Source of the DNA: Zeaxanthinibacter enoshimensis
Lineage (GTDB): Bacteria > Bacteroidota > Bacteroidia > Flavobacteriales > Flavobacteriaceae
Assembly (NCBI RefSeq): GCF_004362865.1
Contig: NZ_SNYI01000001.1
Coordinates: 1,302,001-1,366,000, forward strand
Direction of reading: 5' to 3'
DNA length: 64,000 bases
Shown here piece after piece: positions 41,305 through 61,412 of the stretch (the first letter of the stretch is position 1; the number at the start of each line of letters is the position of its first letter). A model generated the notes under the pieces. That model saw only the letters and a program-made list of their open reading frames with translations, was not told where the DNA came from and searched no databases. The position numbers and the translations under genes were made by a program.

Positions 41305-42654
41305 ATGAAGGAAATTATTGCCACAGTTGTATTACTAACCGCAGGCTTGTTCTGTGTGCAGGCACAGTCACCGCTGCTGACCAAGGAAGAGGCTGTAGAG
41401 CAGGCCCTGGAACATAATTTCGGGATAGAGGTTGCGCGTAACCAGGTTGAAATAGCAGATAATAACCAGGGAATCCTTAATTCGGGTTACCTGCCAAGCC
41501 TGAGTGCGGTAGCCGGGGCTGATTACAGCAGGGACGATTCTACTATTGAATTCCCGGGGCAGGTGGACGACCAGGGTAATCCCAGGCCCGACTTTGAGAT
41601 CAACCAGGCTGAAGCCCAGCGTTATACTTCGGCCCTGCAGCTGAATTATACCCTCTTTGACGGGCTGGGACGGCTCTACAATTACAAGAGTTTAAAAGAA
41701 GAATATGAACTTACCACCCTGCAGGCACGGGAAACCATAGAGAATACGATGCTGGAACTGTTCAGTGTGTATTACGAGATCGCCAGGCTGAGTGAGAATG
41801 AAAAAGTACTGGAAGAAGCCCTGAGGATCTCCCAGGACAGGACCAAACGGGCGGAATATGCCTTTGAATTCGGACAGAATACCAAGCTGAATATCCTCAA
41901 TGCAGAGGTAGATGTCACCAATGACAGCATCAACTTGCTGAATACCCGGCAGCAGCTTAAGAATGCGAAAAGGGACCTGAACCTTATCCTGAACAGGGAG
42001 CTGGATGCAGCCTTTGCAGTAGACACCCTGATCCAGTTCACCTCTCCGCTGGTCTTACAGGACTACATTGACAGGGCCGAAGAAAATAATGTTTCCGTGT
42101 TGCAGGTAGAGCGGAACCTCGCCATCAATGAATACGATATCAAGATCAGCAAATCCGGGTATTTGCCAAGGATCGGGCTCACAGGTTCCTACGGCTGGAA
42201 CCTGAACCAGAGTGCAGCCTCTGCCTTCTTTCCCGGTACCAATAACACCAATAATAACCTTTCCCTGGGCGCCAGTCTCAGCTGGAACCTTTTTGACGGG
42301 GGGAATACCGCGGTGCGGATCAAGAATGCGAAGATCGCCTACGAGAACCAGGAAATATTAAAGAAACAGGTACTGCTTGAAGTGGACCGGGATATAAAGA
42401 ACGCCTTTGATATTTATAAGAACAGGCTGAGCATTTACCGGATACAGGAGAAGAACGTGGTCACCAATAAAAATAATTTTGAACGCTCCCGGGAGCAGTT
42501 CCAGCTGGGGAGGATCACTTCGATCGAGTTCAGGCAGGCCCAGATCAACCTGCTCAACGCCCAGACCAATAAGAACCTGGCCAAGTACGACGCAAAACTG
42601 GCCGAACTGCAGTTGCTGCAGCTGACCGGGCAGTTGTTGAATGTTCCTCTTTAG
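41305..42654 (+). CDS. TolC-family outer-membrane efflux channel
   Basis: Protein of 449 residues. A Sec signal peptide (about 1-20, ending VQAQS) is followed by two OEP repeats of long alternating helices with short beta segments; LTKEEAVEQALEHNFGI opens the first, and FERSREQFQLGRITSIEF is the second-half conserved segment. The protein forms the trimeric channel that completes the tripartite pump. No terminator follows; the stop runs straight into repeat DNA. Confidence 0.93.
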   Translation: MKEIIATVVLLTAGLFCVQAQSPLLTKEEAVEQALEHNFGIEVARNQVEIADNNQGILNSGYLPSLSAVAGADYSRDDSTIEFPGQVDDQGNPRPDFEINQAEAQRYTSALQLNYTLFDGLGRLYNYKSLKEEYELTTLQARETIENTMLELFSVYYEIARLSENEKVLEEALRISQDRTKRAEYAFEFGQNTKLNILNAEVDVTNDSINLLNTRQQLKNAKRDLNLILNRELDAAFAVDTLIQFTSPLVLQDYIDRAEENNVSVLQVERNLAINEYDIKISKSGYLPRIGLTGSYGWNLNQSAASAFFPGTNNTNNNLSLGASLSWNLFDGGNTAVRIKNAKIAYENQEILKKQVLLEVDRDIKNAFDIYKNRLSIYRIQEKNVVTNKNNFERSREQFQLGRITSIEFRQAQINLLNAQTNKNLAKYDAKLAELQLLQLTGQLLNVPL

Positions 42655-42660
42655 GGGGAT

Positions 42661-42825
42661 ACGGTCACACCGTCATGCCGACACACGGTGATTCAGTGAA
42701 GCAGTGATACGGCCCGCCCGTACCGAGCGGCACGTTCGGGCGGGTGATGCGGTGATGCAGTGATACGGTGATGCAGTGACACGGTGATGCGGTGATGCCG
42801 TCATACCGGCACATGAGTATTTATA
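42661..42825 (+). repeat. Mosaic repeat locus 1 (8-bp arrays and GC hairpin)
   Basis: It contains CGTCA-type units, then GTGATRCR-type units (period 8, such as GTGATGCG, GTGATGCA, GTGATACG) around a GC-rich hairpin at 42713-42744. It begins seven bases after the TolC stop and ends just before the -7 box of the CPXCG gene. A related module, AACTTCAAACCTCAAA, continues to about 42850, followed by the small IR CCTGC/GCAGG. Confidence 0.85.
42713..42744. repeat. GC hairpin, inverted variant
   Basis: CCCGCCCG and CGGGCGGG bound 16 bases whose reverse complement differs from the core of the copies at 59539 and 61035 at only three positions. This copy therefore sits in the opposite orientation. Confidence 0.8.
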
Positions 42826-51551: not shown

Positions 51552-51629
51552 GGTGGTGATACGGTGATGCGGTGATGCAGTGATACAGGGATGTGACAAA
51601 GGTGACAAGGGGGACAGGAGTGACAGCGG
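51552..51629. repeat. Mosaic repeat locus 2 (8-bp arrays)
   Basis: Short array of GTGATACG/GTGATGCG/GTGATGCA units followed by GTGACAAGG-type units, in the gap between the carboxylase set and the 51.7 kb lipoprotein. It has no GC hairpin. Confidence 0.8.
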
Positions 51630-52417: not shown

Positions 52418-53011
52418 GGGGGCATTACAGCGGCACACTGTCAAGCGGTGGTCCGGTGATACAGTGATGCAGTGATACGGGGATGCAGTGATACAGTGAT
52501 GCGGTGATACGGCCCGCCCGCCCGCCTGCCTGCCAGACTGGACAAAGTCCAGGATGGAATGACGTAGTCGGGCAGGAACGTACCGTCCGGTACGGGCGGG
52601 TGATACAGTGATGCAAGTAGTGATACGGTGACCCGGTGATGCGGTGACACGGATATTTCGGGATGCCGTCAAGCCATGACGCCGTCAAACGGTACTACAG
52701 ATTATTTTAAACTGCAAACGGCGAACCGGGAACAGCCAACTGCCAACTGTAAACTGCAAACAGCAAACTCCCCACTGTCCACTTCGAACTTCAAACCTCC
52801 AACCTCGAACTTGAGGGGGTTACATAGGTACAAAGGCGTGACAGAGTGACAAGGGGGACAGAAGTGACAGGAATAGGTTAATTTTAGTTACTGTATACTG
52901 CCAATATCAGATCTTAAACTGCAAACTGCAAACTGCAAACTGCAAACTGTCTACTGCCCACTGTCTACTGCCCACTGCCCACTTCGAACCTCGAACTTCA
53001 AACCTCGAACT
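52418..53011. repeat. Mosaic repeat locus 3 (all module types)
   Basis: The 594-base gap is almost entirely repeat DNA. In order it has: CGTCA/GTGATRCR arrays; an enlarged GC hairpin (outer CCCGCCCG at about 52513 and CGGGCGGG near 52600, with an internal TGGAC/GTCCA hairpin and GGCAGG units); more GTGATRCR units; CGTCAAACGG; GCAAACTG-type 7-mers; a GTGACAAGG block; GCAAACTG units again (at about 52916-52950); and YRAACYT units to 53011. No ORF is credible. Confidence 0.85.
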
Positions 53012-53043: not shown

Positions 53044-53723
53044 ATATACACCATGCGCTCTAACCGCGCCAGCTCCTTGTCATCGACATATTTGCCGATC
53101 TCGGTGCGGAATTGTTCCATGTTCTTGTAAGGGCGGTACTCCTCGAATTCGTGCGCCATACGGTCGCCTACGCCGGGGAGCGCTTTGATGTCCGATTCAG
53201 ATGCCGTGTTCAGTTCCACGGGGACATAGACGTAATTCAGGTAGCGCTCAACTTCCTCGTCGTCCACGTATTTTCCGATCTCGCGCTTAAATTGTTCCAC
53301 GCTGGTGTAGGGTCGGTATTCCTCAAACTCGTGCGCCATACGGTCGCCTACGCCTGGGATCAGTTTAAAATCTTCTTCGGCAGTCGAATTCAGATCCATC
53401 GGAATAAAGATCTTGGCATAAAGTTCATCCCTGTTGACATCCTCGCCCAGCATCTCATCCAGTTCCTGCATAGTCAGAAGGGGTTTCTTTTCCAAGATCT
53501 TACCGATCACATCTGCAGGAAGTCCGCTGTTGTTCAGATCTTCTTCCGTCGCGAGGTTCACATTGAGCACTTCATTGGATTCCACCATACCGGACTCCTC
53601 CATCCCTTTGGCTTCCTCGGTCATTGTTTCGCTGTTGGTATCTACTTTCTTCTCTTCCTTGCAGGCGACTACGGTGAGTCCGATCAGGGCGGCACTAAAG
53701 GCCATTTTTGCTATTGTCTTCAT
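53034..53723 (-). CDS. Lipoprotein with three helix-hairpin-helix domains (ComEA-like)
   Basis: Protein of 229 residues. A lipoprotein signal ends in VVAC (Cys21), followed by an acidic linker. Three HhH segments follow (about 52-108, 108-165, 165-229). The second and third are near-duplicates: both contain PGVGDRMAHEFEEYRPY and then EIGKYVDD. HhH domains bind DNA without sequence specificity; an exported lipoprotein with them resembles ComEA and may bind DNA in the periplasm or at the surface. It overlaps the upstream membrane-protein gene by four bases (ATGA), so the two are co-translated. Confidence 0.85.
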   Translation of the reverse strand: MKTIAKMAFSAALIGLTVVACKEEKKVDTNSETMTEEAKGMEESGMVESNEVLNVNLATEEDLNNSGLPADVIGKILEKKPLLTMQELDEMLGEDVNRDELYAKIFIPMDLNSTAEEDFKLIPGVGDRMAHEFEEYRPYTSVEQFKREIGKYVDDEEVERYLNYVYVPVELNTASESDIKALPGVGDRMAHEFEEYRPYKNMEQFRTEIGKYVDDKELARLERMVYIKQ

Positions 53724-58332: not shown

Positions 58333-58806
58333 AAGCAGTTATCCCCAATAGGGGAATGGGTATAGGTCAGGGACACAGGTTAATTGGTTGGTCGCTGTGG
58401 GATTAATACTACGCGACAATCGCATGTCGCACAAACGAGCACTAACTTATAGAATATTTTCATTATGACAAATATTTATCGATGAATAGGGTGAAGGGGT
58501 AACGAGGTAAACAGGTAATCGGGGTAATGGTAAAAGGGGGGAAGGATAAATTGTACGTTCACTCTTTTATGCCAGCACTTAATTTGAGGCATCTTTCGAT
58601 GTGGTCATACCGTAGACGGTCACGCCGTCAAACGGTTCTGCAGATTATATAATGCTGCGAACCGGGAACTGCGAACGGGTAGAGTGACAGGGTGACAAGG
58701 GGGAATAAAAGTTTCAAAGTAGTTTTTATTACTGTCCTTTGTGAACTGCAAACAGCGAACTGCGAACCGCGAACTGCGAACAGCGAACTGGAAACCAAAT
58801 TCTGTA
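58333..58806. repeat. Mosaic repeat locus 4 and upstream region of the barrel gene
   Basis: The first part (58333-58480) is the upstream region of the barrel gene and includes the inverted repeat GCGACA/TGTCGC at 58413-58430. From about 58600 CGTCACGCCGTCAAACGG units, a 38-base block beginning GAACTGCGAACGGGTAGAG (58666-58703, repeated at 61115-61153) and GCAAACTG/GCGAACTG 7-mers run to the VOC gene. No credible ORF. Confidence 0.8.
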
Positions 58807-59460
58807 TCACCGCTCCTTCCGACTTACTATTTCAATAAAAACATTATCGGGATCGCGGAGAAAGACGAGTTGATAGGCATCTCTCTTGACCCACCCCAGT
58901 TTCTGGATATTAAATTTTTTGGACTGGTCAAGGATCTTTTGGAAATCTTTGGCCGAGTAATAGAAGGTAAGGTAATTTACACCTGCCCGATCATTGATTC
59001 CGCCGAGATCTGACCGTTTAACAGGCTCCTCAAAATATGCCAGTTTTATTTCTGTGGCCGCAGGGTTGTCTTTCTGTTTCAACCGCTTCACCTTGAATGG
59101 CTGGTTATTGGCAGCCCCCGCTTCTGCGCTCCAATCCGCATCCAGTTCAAATTCACCTACTTCCACCATGCCTAGAACATTTTTGTAAAAGTCCAGCGAG
59201 GCATTAATATCACTTACGACGATGCCTATTGCTGCTACGCCCAGTTTGGCTTTGGATTGCTGGGGTTTCTTGCCCGACTTCCTCCTCCAGTTTTTGCGAT
59301 AGGTGAGTCTAGGGTCTGGTTTCTCAACGATCAAGGCACCAAGTTTTTTAGCTTCCTGCTGACTTTCCACCATTTCCGGAAGCTCCGCAGGCGGGGTTTG
59401 GGCCCCGCAATGACCAGAAACAATAAGGAAGGCGGCAAGTAGTATGTAAAGTGATTTCAT
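58807..59460 (-). CDS. Exported VOC-superfamily (glyoxalase-like) protein
   Basis: Protein of 217 residues. A Sec signal peptide (about 1-20, ending CGAQ) is followed by a basic, Pro-rich linker (RKNWRRKSGKKPQQSK) and a VOC domain (about 75-215): IGIVVSDINASLDFYKNVLG, SKFDF-like and FLRDPDNVFIEIVSRKE, which has the C-terminal Glu that is often a metal ligand. VOC proteins include glyoxalase I and dioxygenases; an exported form is unusual and the substrate is unknown. It is flanked by mosaic repeats on both sides. Confidence 0.83.
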   Translation of the reverse strand: MKSLYILLAAFLIVSGHCGAQTPPAELPEMVESQQEAKKLGALIVEKPDPRLTYRKNWRRKSGKKPQQSKAKLGVAAIGIVVSDINASLDFYKNVLGMVEVGEFELDADWSAEAGAANNQPFKVKRLKQKDNPAATEIKLAYFEEPVKRSDLGGINDRAGVNYLTFYYSAKDFQKILDQSKKFNIQKLGWVKRDAYQLVFLRDPDNVFIEIVSRKER

Positions 59461-60159
59461 AACATCTCCCGTTTGGAAGCCCGGGGGAGACTACGCGATT
59501 TAGGGTTAAGTTACGAAAAATGTGAGGGAGTGATGCGGCCCGCCCGAACGTACCGTCCGGTACGGGCGGGTGATGCAGTGATGCGGTGATACAGTGATAC
59601 AGGTAGGCGGGTATACGGGTAATTGGAAATCCAGATCAATTTCGAACATCAAACCTCAAACTTCGAACTACCAGGTCATACCGTCACACCGTCACGCCGT
59701 CAAACGGTGATACGGTGATGCAGTGATACGGTGAAGCGGTAATACAGTAAACTTTTACAACTTTTTTATTATGCATCGAACTTCGAACTTCGAACCTCGA
59801 ATTTACCTACCCGCCCGCCCGCCTGAATGACGTAGTCGGGCAGGTACCGAGCGGCACGTTCGGGCGGGTGATGCGGTGATACAGGTATACGGGTAATTGG
59901 AAATCCAGATCAAATTCGAACATCAAACCTCAAACTTCGAACTACCAGGTCACACCGTCACGCCGGCAAACGGTTTTACAGTGATTGGGTGATGCGGTGA
60001 TACAGTGATACAGGTAGGCGGGTATAAGGGTAATTGGAAATCCAGATCAATTTCGAACATCAAACCTCAAACTTCGAACCGCGCATTGCGCACTAAATGC
60101 AACCCTTATTGCAAGCAATCCAACACGCCAGAGACGGGAAAAGATATTAAATTGCCATT
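59461..60159. repeat. Mosaic repeat locus 5 with triplicated 60-bp unit
   Basis: Apart from about 70 bases next to the VOC start, this 699-base gap is repeat DNA. It contains the intact GC hairpin (59539-59570), an enlarged inverted hairpin near 59810-59870, and three copies of a unit of about 50-60 bp beginning GGGTAATTGGAAATCCAG (59617-59678, 59891-59952, 60028-60079; one base differs in copy 2). These are separated by GTGATRCR, CGTCAnnC and YRAACYT arrays. A block from 59748 to 59780 recurs at 61317-61349. Confidence 0.88.
59539..59570. repeat. Intact GC hairpin, copy A
   Basis: CCCGCCCG (59539-59546), four unpaired bases AACG, TACCG-TC-CGGTA, then CGGGCGGG (59563-59570). It is identical over all 32 bases to the copy at 61035-61066. 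Confidence 0.9.
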
Positions 60160-60882
60160 ATGAATCTCTACACCATACTTGCGCTCTCACTACTTGTCCT
60201 CACCCACCTTTTCTCATATAAACTTAATCTGACCAGCATTCCACGCTCCAGGTGGTTGTCTTTTGCAGGCGGGATCTCGGTAGCCTATATCTTCCTGTCT
60301 GCTTTCCCGGAACTGTTCGAATTTCACGAAGCAGTGAGGGAGGAAAAAGGTTTTATCCTGGCGGATTCGGCCATTTTCCTGCTGGCCCTGGGCGGACTCG
60401 TACTTTTCTACGGCCTGGAACGGCATGCGAAGCTGACGGAGCATTCCAGGCGGGATCCGGCGGGGGAAGAGCAGGAGGGAAGTATTTACTGGCTGCACCT
60501 GGCGTCCTTTGCCCTATACAACCTGATCATCGGCTACCTGCTCTTGGAAAGGGAAGAAGACAGCGGAAGGTTCGGAATGATTCTGTACGCCACCGCCATG
60601 GCCTTTCATTTCATGGTGACCGATTTTGCCCTGGCCGAACATTATACCAAACGCTACGAGAAAGGCGGGCGGTGGTTGCTGGTCGCCGCGGTCATCGCAG
60701 GCTGGGGAATCTCCCTCTTCCTCGAGATCCCGAAACACTACCTGGGAATGCTCTTTGCCTTCCTCGCCGGGGGTGTCATCCTTAACGTGATGAAAGAGGA
60801 ATTACCGAAGGAACGCGAAAGTAATCTTCCCGCTTTCATTTCCGGAGTTGTTGGGTATGGAGTGTTGTTAATAGCTGGATGA
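60160..60882 (+). CDS. ZIP-like multi-helix membrane protein
   Basis: Protein of 240 residues with about seven transmembrane helices. The segments SFAGGISVAYIFLSAFPEL and LFAFLAGGVILNVMKEELP resemble the small-residue and acidic helices of ZIP metal transporters, and a His/charge-rich loop (about 85-105) lies between helices 3 and 4. The ZIP call is inference from pattern; the canonical HNxxD motif is not evident. It stands alone between two repeat loci. Confidence 0.6.
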   Translation: MNLYTILALSLLVLTHLFSYKLNLTSIPRSRWLSFAGGISVAYIFLSAFPELFEFHEAVREEKGFILADSAIFLLALGGLVLFYGLERHAKLTEHSRRDPAGEEQEGSIYWLHLASFALYNLIIGYLLLEREEDSGRFGMILYATAMAFHFMVTDFALAEHYTKRYEKGGRWLLVAAVIAGWGISLFLEIPKHYLGMLFAFLAGGVILNVMKEELPKERESNLPAFISGVVGYGVLLIAG

Positions 60883-61412
60883 GGCATTGAAAAGGGTGAT
60901 GCGGCCCGCCCGAATGAACGTCGTTCCTGCCCGTACTGCGTACATGCAGGCGGGCGGGCGGGTGATGCGGTGATGCGGATATTTCGGGATGCCGTCAAAC
61001 CGGCACACCGTCAAACGGTTTTACAGTGATACGGCCCGCCCGAACGTACCGTCCGGTACGGGCGGGTGATGCGGTGAAGCAGTGAAACGGTCACACCCGC
61101 AAACTGCAAACCGTGAACTGCGAACGGGTAGAGTGACAGGGTGACAAGAGGGACAGAAGGGACATAAAAATTTTTTGTGAGTGCCCACTGCCTACTGTCC
61201 ACTGCCTACCACCAACTGAGCCCAGCAGGCCTCGAACTACCAGGTCACACCGTCACGCCGTCACACCGTCAAACGGTTTTACAGTGATACGGTGAAGCGG
61301 TGAAGCGGTAATAGAGTAAACTTTTACAACTTTTTTGTTATGCATCGAACCTCAAACCTCAAACCTCAAACTTCGAACTTATCGGCCGAAAACCTATCAT
61401 GACTCTGTATCC
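60883..61412. repeat. Mosaic repeat locus 6
   Basis: The 530-base gap has an enlarged GC hairpin near 60903-60961, an intact GC hairpin at 61035-61066, GTGATRCR and CGTCAnnC arrays, a 39-base block (61115-61153) shared with locus 4, a block (61317-61349) shared with locus 5, and YRAACYT units that reach to within about 30 bases of the amidase stop. No credible ORF. Confidence 0.87.
61035..61066. repeat. Intact GC hairpin, copy B
   Basis: CCCGCCCG (61035-61042), AACG, TACCG-TC-CGGTA, CGGGCGGG (61059-61066); identical to the copy at 59539-59570. Confidence 0.9.

Follow-up and report, generated by a model that had tools for sequence, protein, structure and literature searches.

The stretch of Zeaxanthinibacter enoshimensis DNA analysed here (64,000 nucleotides, hereafter the window) contains GC-rich hairpins that recur at distant positions, in two orientations of their core and in enlarged forms, which raises the question of what kind of element they are and what, if anything, moves them. 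A first-pass annotation had described them as exact 32-bp copies with inverted and enlarged variants, and had read them as a mobile or recombining palindrome of the REP/REPIN or MITE-like kind. The arms of the family are CCYGCCYG and CRGGCRGG, between which the cores vary, and the features of the window, all on the + strand, are as follows.

42713-42744, +: 32-bp hairpin, core orientation B, within an 8-bp array (sequence, array register, fold)
42744-42800, +: (GTGATRCR)n 8-bp tandem array carrying a hairpin (repeat family D1)
52440-52660, +: 8-bp array surrounding a nested hairpin (repeat family D1)
52513-52600, +: orientation-A 32-bp hairpin with a 56-bp insert after its left arm, three nested hairpins (sequence, fold)
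52521-52576, +: the 56-bp insert, in which the 27-bp hairpin seen at 59818-59844 encloses another hairpin of 29 bp (sequence)
52529-52557, +: innermost 29-bp hairpin, CCTGCCAGACTGGACAAAGTCCAGGATGG, equivalently placed at 52528-52556 (sequence)
59539-59570, +: 32-bp hairpin, core orientation A, within an 8-bp array (sequence, array register, DNA fold)
59810-59868, +: orientation-B 32-bp hairpin interrupted behind its left arm by a 27-bp hairpin, array on the right only (sequence)
59818-59844, +: the inserted 27-bp hairpin, CCCGCCTGAATGACGTAGTCGGGCAGG (sequence)
60905-60962, +: 29-bp hairpin CCCGCCCGAATGAACGTCGTT/CGGGCGGG with a 29-bp hairpin before its right arm (sequence, DNA fold z -3.7)
60926-60954, +: the inserted 29-bp hairpin, CCTGCCCGTACTGCGTACATGCAGGCGGG (sequence)
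61035-61066, +: second letter-for-letter copy of the 59539-59570 hairpin (32 bp, core orientation A)

The copies at 59539-59570 and 61035-61066 agree letter for letter, as had been claimed, and the hairpin at 42713-42744, which reads CCCGCCCG-TACCG-AG-CGGCA-CGTT-CGGGCGGG, indeed carries the reverse-complemented core of the 59539 hairpin with three differences, its 8-bp arms also being equal. In 20 Markov-1 simulations of 64 kb, the hairpin-family pattern had no match and the longest exact repeats fell into classes of 14-18 nt. Five stretches were folded as single-stranded DNA, and four of them were clearly more stable than their shuffles (z -2.1 to -4.9), among them 59539-59570 (-11.5 kcal/mol, z -2.8), 42713-42744 (-10.4 kcal/mol, z -2.1) and 52513-52600 (z -4.9); the fifth, 59810-59868, reached a z of only -1.55, and its left outer arm was unpaired in the best fold.

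The variants that had been described as enlarged while keeping their outer arms are hairpins within hairpins, at the slightly corrected coordinates 52513-52600, 59810-59868 and 60905-60962. In each, one complete hairpin of 29-32 bp is interrupted by another, nesting goes up to three deep, and the nested insertions sit at the arm/core junction of the host hairpin. Once 52521-52576 is removed, the left arm and 52577-52600 together equal 59539-59570 exactly; similarly, removal of 59818-59844 leaves an arm and 59845-59868 that together equal 42713-42744 exactly. Because taking out the insert restores an uninterrupted window copy in these two cases, the window holds its own empty sites. The innermost 29-bp hairpin of 52521-52576 carries the TGGAC/GTCCA stem, and the last 15 bp of the 59818-59844 hairpin match 11 places in the genome at no more than one mismatch. 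What is borne out of the notion of a mobile or recombining palindrome is a dispersed one of the insertion type, as seen from copies that are identical, from the two core orientations, from nesting and from empty sites that match exactly.

In the whole genome (3.34 Mb in 12 contigs, 100% complete by estimate), 59 places fit the pattern CCYGCCYG-N3-30-CRGGCRGG, versus none for a reversed control pattern. The 19 array copies with distinct flanks (taken from 21 rows, leaving out one truncated duplicate and the tRNA copy described below) all lie in one fixed register, with RG before the hairpin and, after it, TGA in 18 of 19 cases and GGA in the other. Relative to the sense of the array, ten of these copies have core orientation A and nine have orientation B.

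Neither a GIY-YIG match nor a tRNA was found inside the 64-kb window, and the copy of the hairpin beside such genes lies elsewhere in the genome. At 847.8 kb of contig C1 (locus L016), nucleotides 1-22 of a tRNA-Ala are followed by the 32-mer, nucleotides 23-28 and a GIY-YIG ORF, after which comes an intact tRNA-Ala (GGC) encoded by the same strand. This 32-mer, which occupies the D-loop of the truncated tRNA-Ala copy, is exactly that of the window (59539-59570), and through this sequence identity the window hairpins are tied to the GIY-YIG element. A second place in the genome has two GIY-YIG matches at tRNA-Asn (L207 and L208), one with an internal stop, and the spare tRNA-Asn copies there carry a different hairpin.

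The protein encoded in this genome has 82 amino acids and consists of a lone GIY-YIG domain (PF01541, E 1.3e-16); PF01541 was matched in all four proteins tried, and NCBIfam gave no match to the 82-aa protein. Residues Y5, Y16, G18, R26, H30 and E62, which we take to be the catalytic set, are invariant across 42 sequences. The structure model has a pLDDT of 94.5, and its nearest solved folds are UPF0213 (1zg2) and Slx1, with only 1zg2 at E <0.001; profile comparison likewise led to UPF0213 proteins, with SLX1 at E 0.005. The UPF0213 and SLX1 nucleases are hence the closest solved structures both by sequence and by fold, and Slx1-Slx4 is described as processing branched DNA (6seh). By this likeness of fold and sequence, the 82-aa protein may perhaps act on structured DNA. 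Carriage of the protein by a phage or plasmid was considered and dropped, as neither collection yielded a match at 1e-5.

A scan of genome contigs, including metagenome bins, with a 32-mer pattern that left three positions half-open gave at least 112 stretches in 54 genomes (counted by eye) among the matches listed. These belong to Bacteroidota, Chlorobiota, many Patescibacteria and Scalindua, the phylum being in part presumed for individual records. Among the matches listed there are 121 copies, 117 of them with distinct flanks, and 15 of the 117 interrupt a tRNA copy whose intact version shares the locus. The break falls after nucleotide 22 in nine of these, after nucleotide 21 in one, after nucleotide 17 in one and at nucleotides 50-61 in four; the test behind the count of 15 demands continuity without any break, and near matches, L093 and L108 for example, escape it. 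Short tandem arrays hold 23 of the 117 listed copies (background 0.9%), and the other 79 lie outside arrays and outside any tRNA copy that was recognised. A GIY-YIG domain lies within 150 bp of 16 of the 121 listed copies, compared with a mean of 1.5 and a maximum of 7 under random placement (2000 runs, 112 loci), and the ORF, the broken tRNA and the intact tRNA occur together at, for example, L093, L101, L108 and L112. In a sample of 296 genomes of the class, the 32-mer was present at no more than one mismatch in five, three of which have, among the matches listed, a copy 9, 15 or 19 bp from a GIY-YIG domain; this sample and the 32-mer scan seem to share one assembly (G350 = NGFH01) and are therefore not wholly independent.

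The GIY-YIG family (profile A1) is present in 207 of the 296 class genomes; among 40 genomes carrying the 32-mer, 39 have it. At the 90 loci studied, which were taken from the best-scoring matches of the class sample and leave out some tandem neighbours, a tRNA lies within 300 bp in 69 and within 100 bp in 58, and the strands of tRNA and GIY-YIG gene agree in 69 of 69; at the remaining 21 of the 90 loci no tRNA was found. Spare tRNA copies at the 90 loci contain 39 insertions that have a tRNA match of 8 nt on each side, and 29 of them have a terminal stem, including one (L305) that looks spurious. Among these 29, 26 fall within or border on a D, anticodon or T loop, where 43% would be expected (p 2.5e-7, a value that serves only as a guide because the rows share ancestry to an unknown degree); for all 39 insertions the number at these loops or their edges is 34. 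It is for these spare tRNA copies that insertion into loops was observed. No base is lost or repeated in 17 of the 29 insertions, and overlaps of 1, 2 and 4 nt are present in nine, two and one, respectively; these 12 overlaps may have arisen by chance.

The hairpins in the tRNA copies comprise several sequence families. In some loci a hairpin replaces tRNA bases, such as TCCGCC..GGCGGA or a similar one between the anticodon and the T arm (L280, L293, L300 and L310). An exact copy of the tRNA end beyond the ORF was not found in 25 of 69 loci, several of which carry such a hairpin-replaced tRNA piece. Tandem GIY-YIG cassettes also occur, for example ten in G178:C9. The idea that the duplicated tRNA halves start and stop exactly at the tRNA ends was abandoned, since the flanks are duplicated as well in several loci (10 of 10 flanking positions agree on the five-prime side in 3 of 20 cases and on the three-prime side in 8 of 24).

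Which gene accompanies the hairpins was assessed at two levels. In the class sample of 296 genomes, the family pattern occurs at 1000 sites, spread over 135 genomes, versus 105 for the reversed control. GIY-YIG and Y1 genes were found in 50 and 47, respectively, of the 53 class genomes with at least five hairpins, and in 23 and 22 of the 23 with at least ten; the partial rank correlation with hairpin number is 0.29 for GIY-YIG and 0.16 for Y1. Co-occurrence at the level of genomes does not single out GIY-YIG from Y1. At the level of loci, the 90 GIY-YIG loci hold 33 family hairpins, 27 of them within 150 bp of the GIY-YIG domain, a zone that makes up 27% of the sequence, and a CCYGCCYG-family hairpin comes this close to the domain in no more than 16 of the 90 loci. 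A set of 30 Y1 loci taken from 32-mer-bearing genomes contains a single family hairpin, which lies within 150 bp of the Y1 gene. The two sets of loci were drawn from different genome sets, which limits this comparison. Taken together, these sequence comparisons point to a GIY-YIG nuclease adjoining tRNA genes as the gene partner.

The comparisons bear directly on the reading of the hairpins as REP/REPIN elements that were mobilised by a RAYT (TnpA_REP, of the Y1/HUH type) since lost from this genome. The hairpins are palindromic, dispersed and intergenic, as REPs are; of 40 genomes carrying the 32-mer, 27 have a Y1 gene, as do most of the hairpin-rich class genomes counted above; and the CGTC REPs of Bacteroidetes are described as apparently lacking a dedicated transposase (PMC3733652). 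However, the Z. enoshimensis genome holds its 59 family hairpins with no match to PF01797, the profile of the Y1 transposase (100% complete by estimate; the same search was positive in 5 of 14 control genomes). A RAYT-like gene elsewhere in the genome, which the first-pass annotation had proposed to look for, was sought with this profile and not found. Furthermore, Y1 was not detected in the other 13 of the 40 genomes, for which completeness is not given, the Y1 loci are nearly free of hairpins, albeit with the single one close to its gene, and in the window the 32-bp hairpin has neither a GTAG nor a CGTC tag at its foot. The REP/REPIN assignment is accordingly not retained, and a lost RAYT appears quite unlikely as the source of these hairpins. 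The MITE-like assignment fares no better, given the exact empty sites of the window and the 17 of 29 tRNA insertions in which no base is duplicated; a MITE of a DDE transposon was rejected on the same grounds, that is, for want of a clear target-site duplication. A structure selected by the host, whether a terminator, an RNA stability element or a protein-binding site, would agree with the intergenic location and with the stability of four of the five folded stretches. It is contradicted by the surroundings of the hairpins, which vary in gene orientation (relative to the longest ORFs, 59539 lies upstream of both neighbours, 61035 downstream of both and 42713 between codirectional ones), and by the copies in arrays and in broken tRNA copies, and is very improbable. 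Terminator-like sites number 0 in 59400-61400, compared with 2.1 expected in shuffles, and the remaining hairpins run into array units without a T run, so that an intrinsic terminator was discarded; a known RNA family was discarded as well, there being no Rfam match in the window.

The reading that we favour, by a little better than an even chance, is that the window hairpins are non-autonomous GC-rich insertion palindromes partnered with stand-alone, tRNA-associated GIY-YIG elements. The association of GIY-YIG genes with the hairpins and their mostly clean insertion are seen in the loci themselves, whereas we infer from them that the nuclease moves the hairpins. In a feasible model, the nuclease would cut or nick tRNA genes in the manner of SegB, and perhaps also structured DNA, as the UPF0213 and SLX1 folds suggest. 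Such cutting would let the cassettes duplicate, and SegB-like cutting combined with amplification could explain the duplications of GIY-YIG gene plus tRNA. During repair, hairpins might enter the unpaired junctions of exposed stem-loops, and they may persist only where they are harmless, namely in a spare tRNA copy or, as in the window, in arrays between genes. Once in the spare copy, a hairpin would destroy both the tRNA and the nuclease site, which would do away with an additional place to cut or with a tRNA that misfolds. That the nuclease itself transfers the hairpins is our guess, made by analogy with structure-specific nucleases and from the preference for loops and stem junctions. This explanation says nothing about what the genes next to the window copies do.

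The uniform setting of the array copies invites a more passive interpretation, in which a hairpin entered an 8-bp array once, was then spread by duplication or gene conversion of array segments, had its core flipped by arm-to-arm recombination and is now immobile. The one register common to the 19 array copies, the repetition of the arrays themselves (families D1, D5, D6 and D10) and the identical 70-nt flanks of L014 and L015 all speak for such passengers, but such a course would not account for the window's 32-mer recurring unchanged in the tRNA-Ala copy, for the unlike insertion sites in other phyla or for the nesting of hairpin in hairpin. We regard this history as rather doubtful as a full account, and it is compatible with the partnership with GIY-YIG elements rather than exclusive of it. 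Alternatively, the hairpins could have originated locally by replication error (template switching or palindrome growth) and have been kept, with no moving enzyme, since a hairpin disables a surplus tRNA copy. The variation of hairpin sequences between genomes and loci, and the hairpins that replace an arm instead of inserting, would fit this origin; nevertheless, the same 32-mer, core included, is present in several phyla and at unlike sites of one genome, so that copying rather than local invention is needed, and a purely local origin is unlikely.

The partnership of hairpin and GIY-YIG element may be compared with several known systems. SegB, a free-standing GIY-YIG enzyme of T-even phages, is described as cutting tRNA genes and driving tandem amplification of a segment comprising tRNA and segB (PMC13096335). 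The elements considered here resemble it in having a free-standing GIY-YIG gene adjoining tRNA genes and in occurring as tandem cassettes; they differ in being chromosomal, in the 82-aa length of the protein in the present genome and in the hairpins within spare tRNA copies, and cutting is only putative for them. The likeness to REP/REPIN elements with their RAYTs, of the GTAG and CGTC types (PMC3733652), lies in short, dispersed, intergenic palindromes as described there, whereas the present genome lacks a Y1 transposase, its hairpin has no tag at the foot, and one copy lies in a tRNA beside a GIY-YIG gene. Mitochondrial GC clusters and repetitive hairpin-forming elements are likewise portrayed as GC-rich mobile palindromes that merge, shuffle and pass between species (PMC4478555, PMC2800124); unlike them, the hairpins described here are bacterial and have a link to a GIY-YIG ORF and to tRNA copies, and the target duplication that is putative for GC clusters in the text of those reports has no clear counterpart here. 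Insertions in CPR rRNA genes hold GIY-YIG ORFs and are characterised as neither group I nor group II introns; most are situated at the top or base of stem-loops, and many are short and ORF-less (PMC11270868). They share with the present case the GIY-YIG ORFs, the short ORF-less inserts, the stem-loop sites and the CPR hosts, and differ in lying in rRNA genes and not in tRNA genes. In the titles and abstract beginnings of open-access papers, no description of the combination of GIY-YIG gene, broken tRNA and hairpin was found among the matches listed.

It is also tempting to generalize, with considerable reserve, to a new class of bacterial mobile DNA comprising hairpins of about 20-40 nt, moved by a tiny structure-specific GIY-YIG nuclease with no target duplication. 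Its targets would be the unpaired loops of DNA stem-loops, namely tRNA cloverleaves, other hairpins and perhaps CPR rRNA genes; it would be common to Bacteroidota, Patescibacteria and Planctomycetota, and the killing of a spare tRNA copy would benefit the nuclease element. This broader proposal is possible, yet we would not presume it. The window itself offers a dispersed hairpin family in a genome without a RAYT, with visible empty sites and an alternative gene partner that can be tested. That its 32-mer also interrupts a broken tRNA copy beside a small nuclease gene, in this genome and in bacteria of other phyla, gives a hint of a mobile hairpin of a sort not yet described, without the enzyme that normally moves hairpins. 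If the link to the nuclease holds, it could account for many of the GC-rich hairpins found between genes of Bacteroidota and for the small GIY-YIG proteins encoded next to tRNA genes; perhaps it would extend to the insertions in CPR rRNA genes, both the short ones and those with GIY-YIG. It would also provide a bacterial counterpart to the mitochondrial GC clusters, for which we know of no mover.

A separate observation, which the first-pass annotation did not include, concerns the immediate setting of the window hairpins: at least one (GTGATRCR)n unit flanks them on each side, the left side of 59810-59868 being the exception; in some cases the left side has just one unit. The array pattern is present in 2 of 40 genomes searched, one of them that of Z. 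enoshimensis.

A broken tRNA copy bearing the 32-bp hairpin sequence is followed by a short stretch and then by the intact tRNA at four loci (L057, L086, L089 and L115), in none of which a GIY-YIG ORF separates the broken tRNA from the intact one; these arrangements are possibly deletion derivatives. In two other loci (L237 and L306), spare tRNA copies contain two hairpins, one in the D loop and one in the T loop.

Tandem GIY-YIG cassettes were observed at locus L278 (G178:C9:905146-911295), where the matches listed include 10 in tandem with nearly equal scores. These units recur with a period of approximately 457 bp, and those that were read contain hairpin-damaged tRNA pieces. In the Z. enoshimensis genome, a second GIY-YIG place is located at tRNA-Asn (L208, 1201-1960; contig C1, approximately 432.5-433.3 kb), and several spare tRNA copies at this site bear a different hairpin, TCCCGCACCTGCGGGA (in the tRNA sense).

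The window also contains the following repeats.

Repeats in the window
42648-42824, 51556-51596, 52440-52684, 59562-59755 and 60961-61091: intergenic arrays of 8-bp units, GTGATRCR
52697-53010 and 58731-58802, for example: 7-bp arrays of the ACTGCAA and TTCGAAC types
53065-53410: direct repeat of 166 nt, spacing 180 nt, 72% identical

The 8-bp array pattern is present in two of the 40 genomes searched, one of which is that of Z. enoshimensis itself, and units resembling GTCACACC represent the other sense of these arrays. Overlapping ORFs occur in the region of the 166-nt direct repeat.
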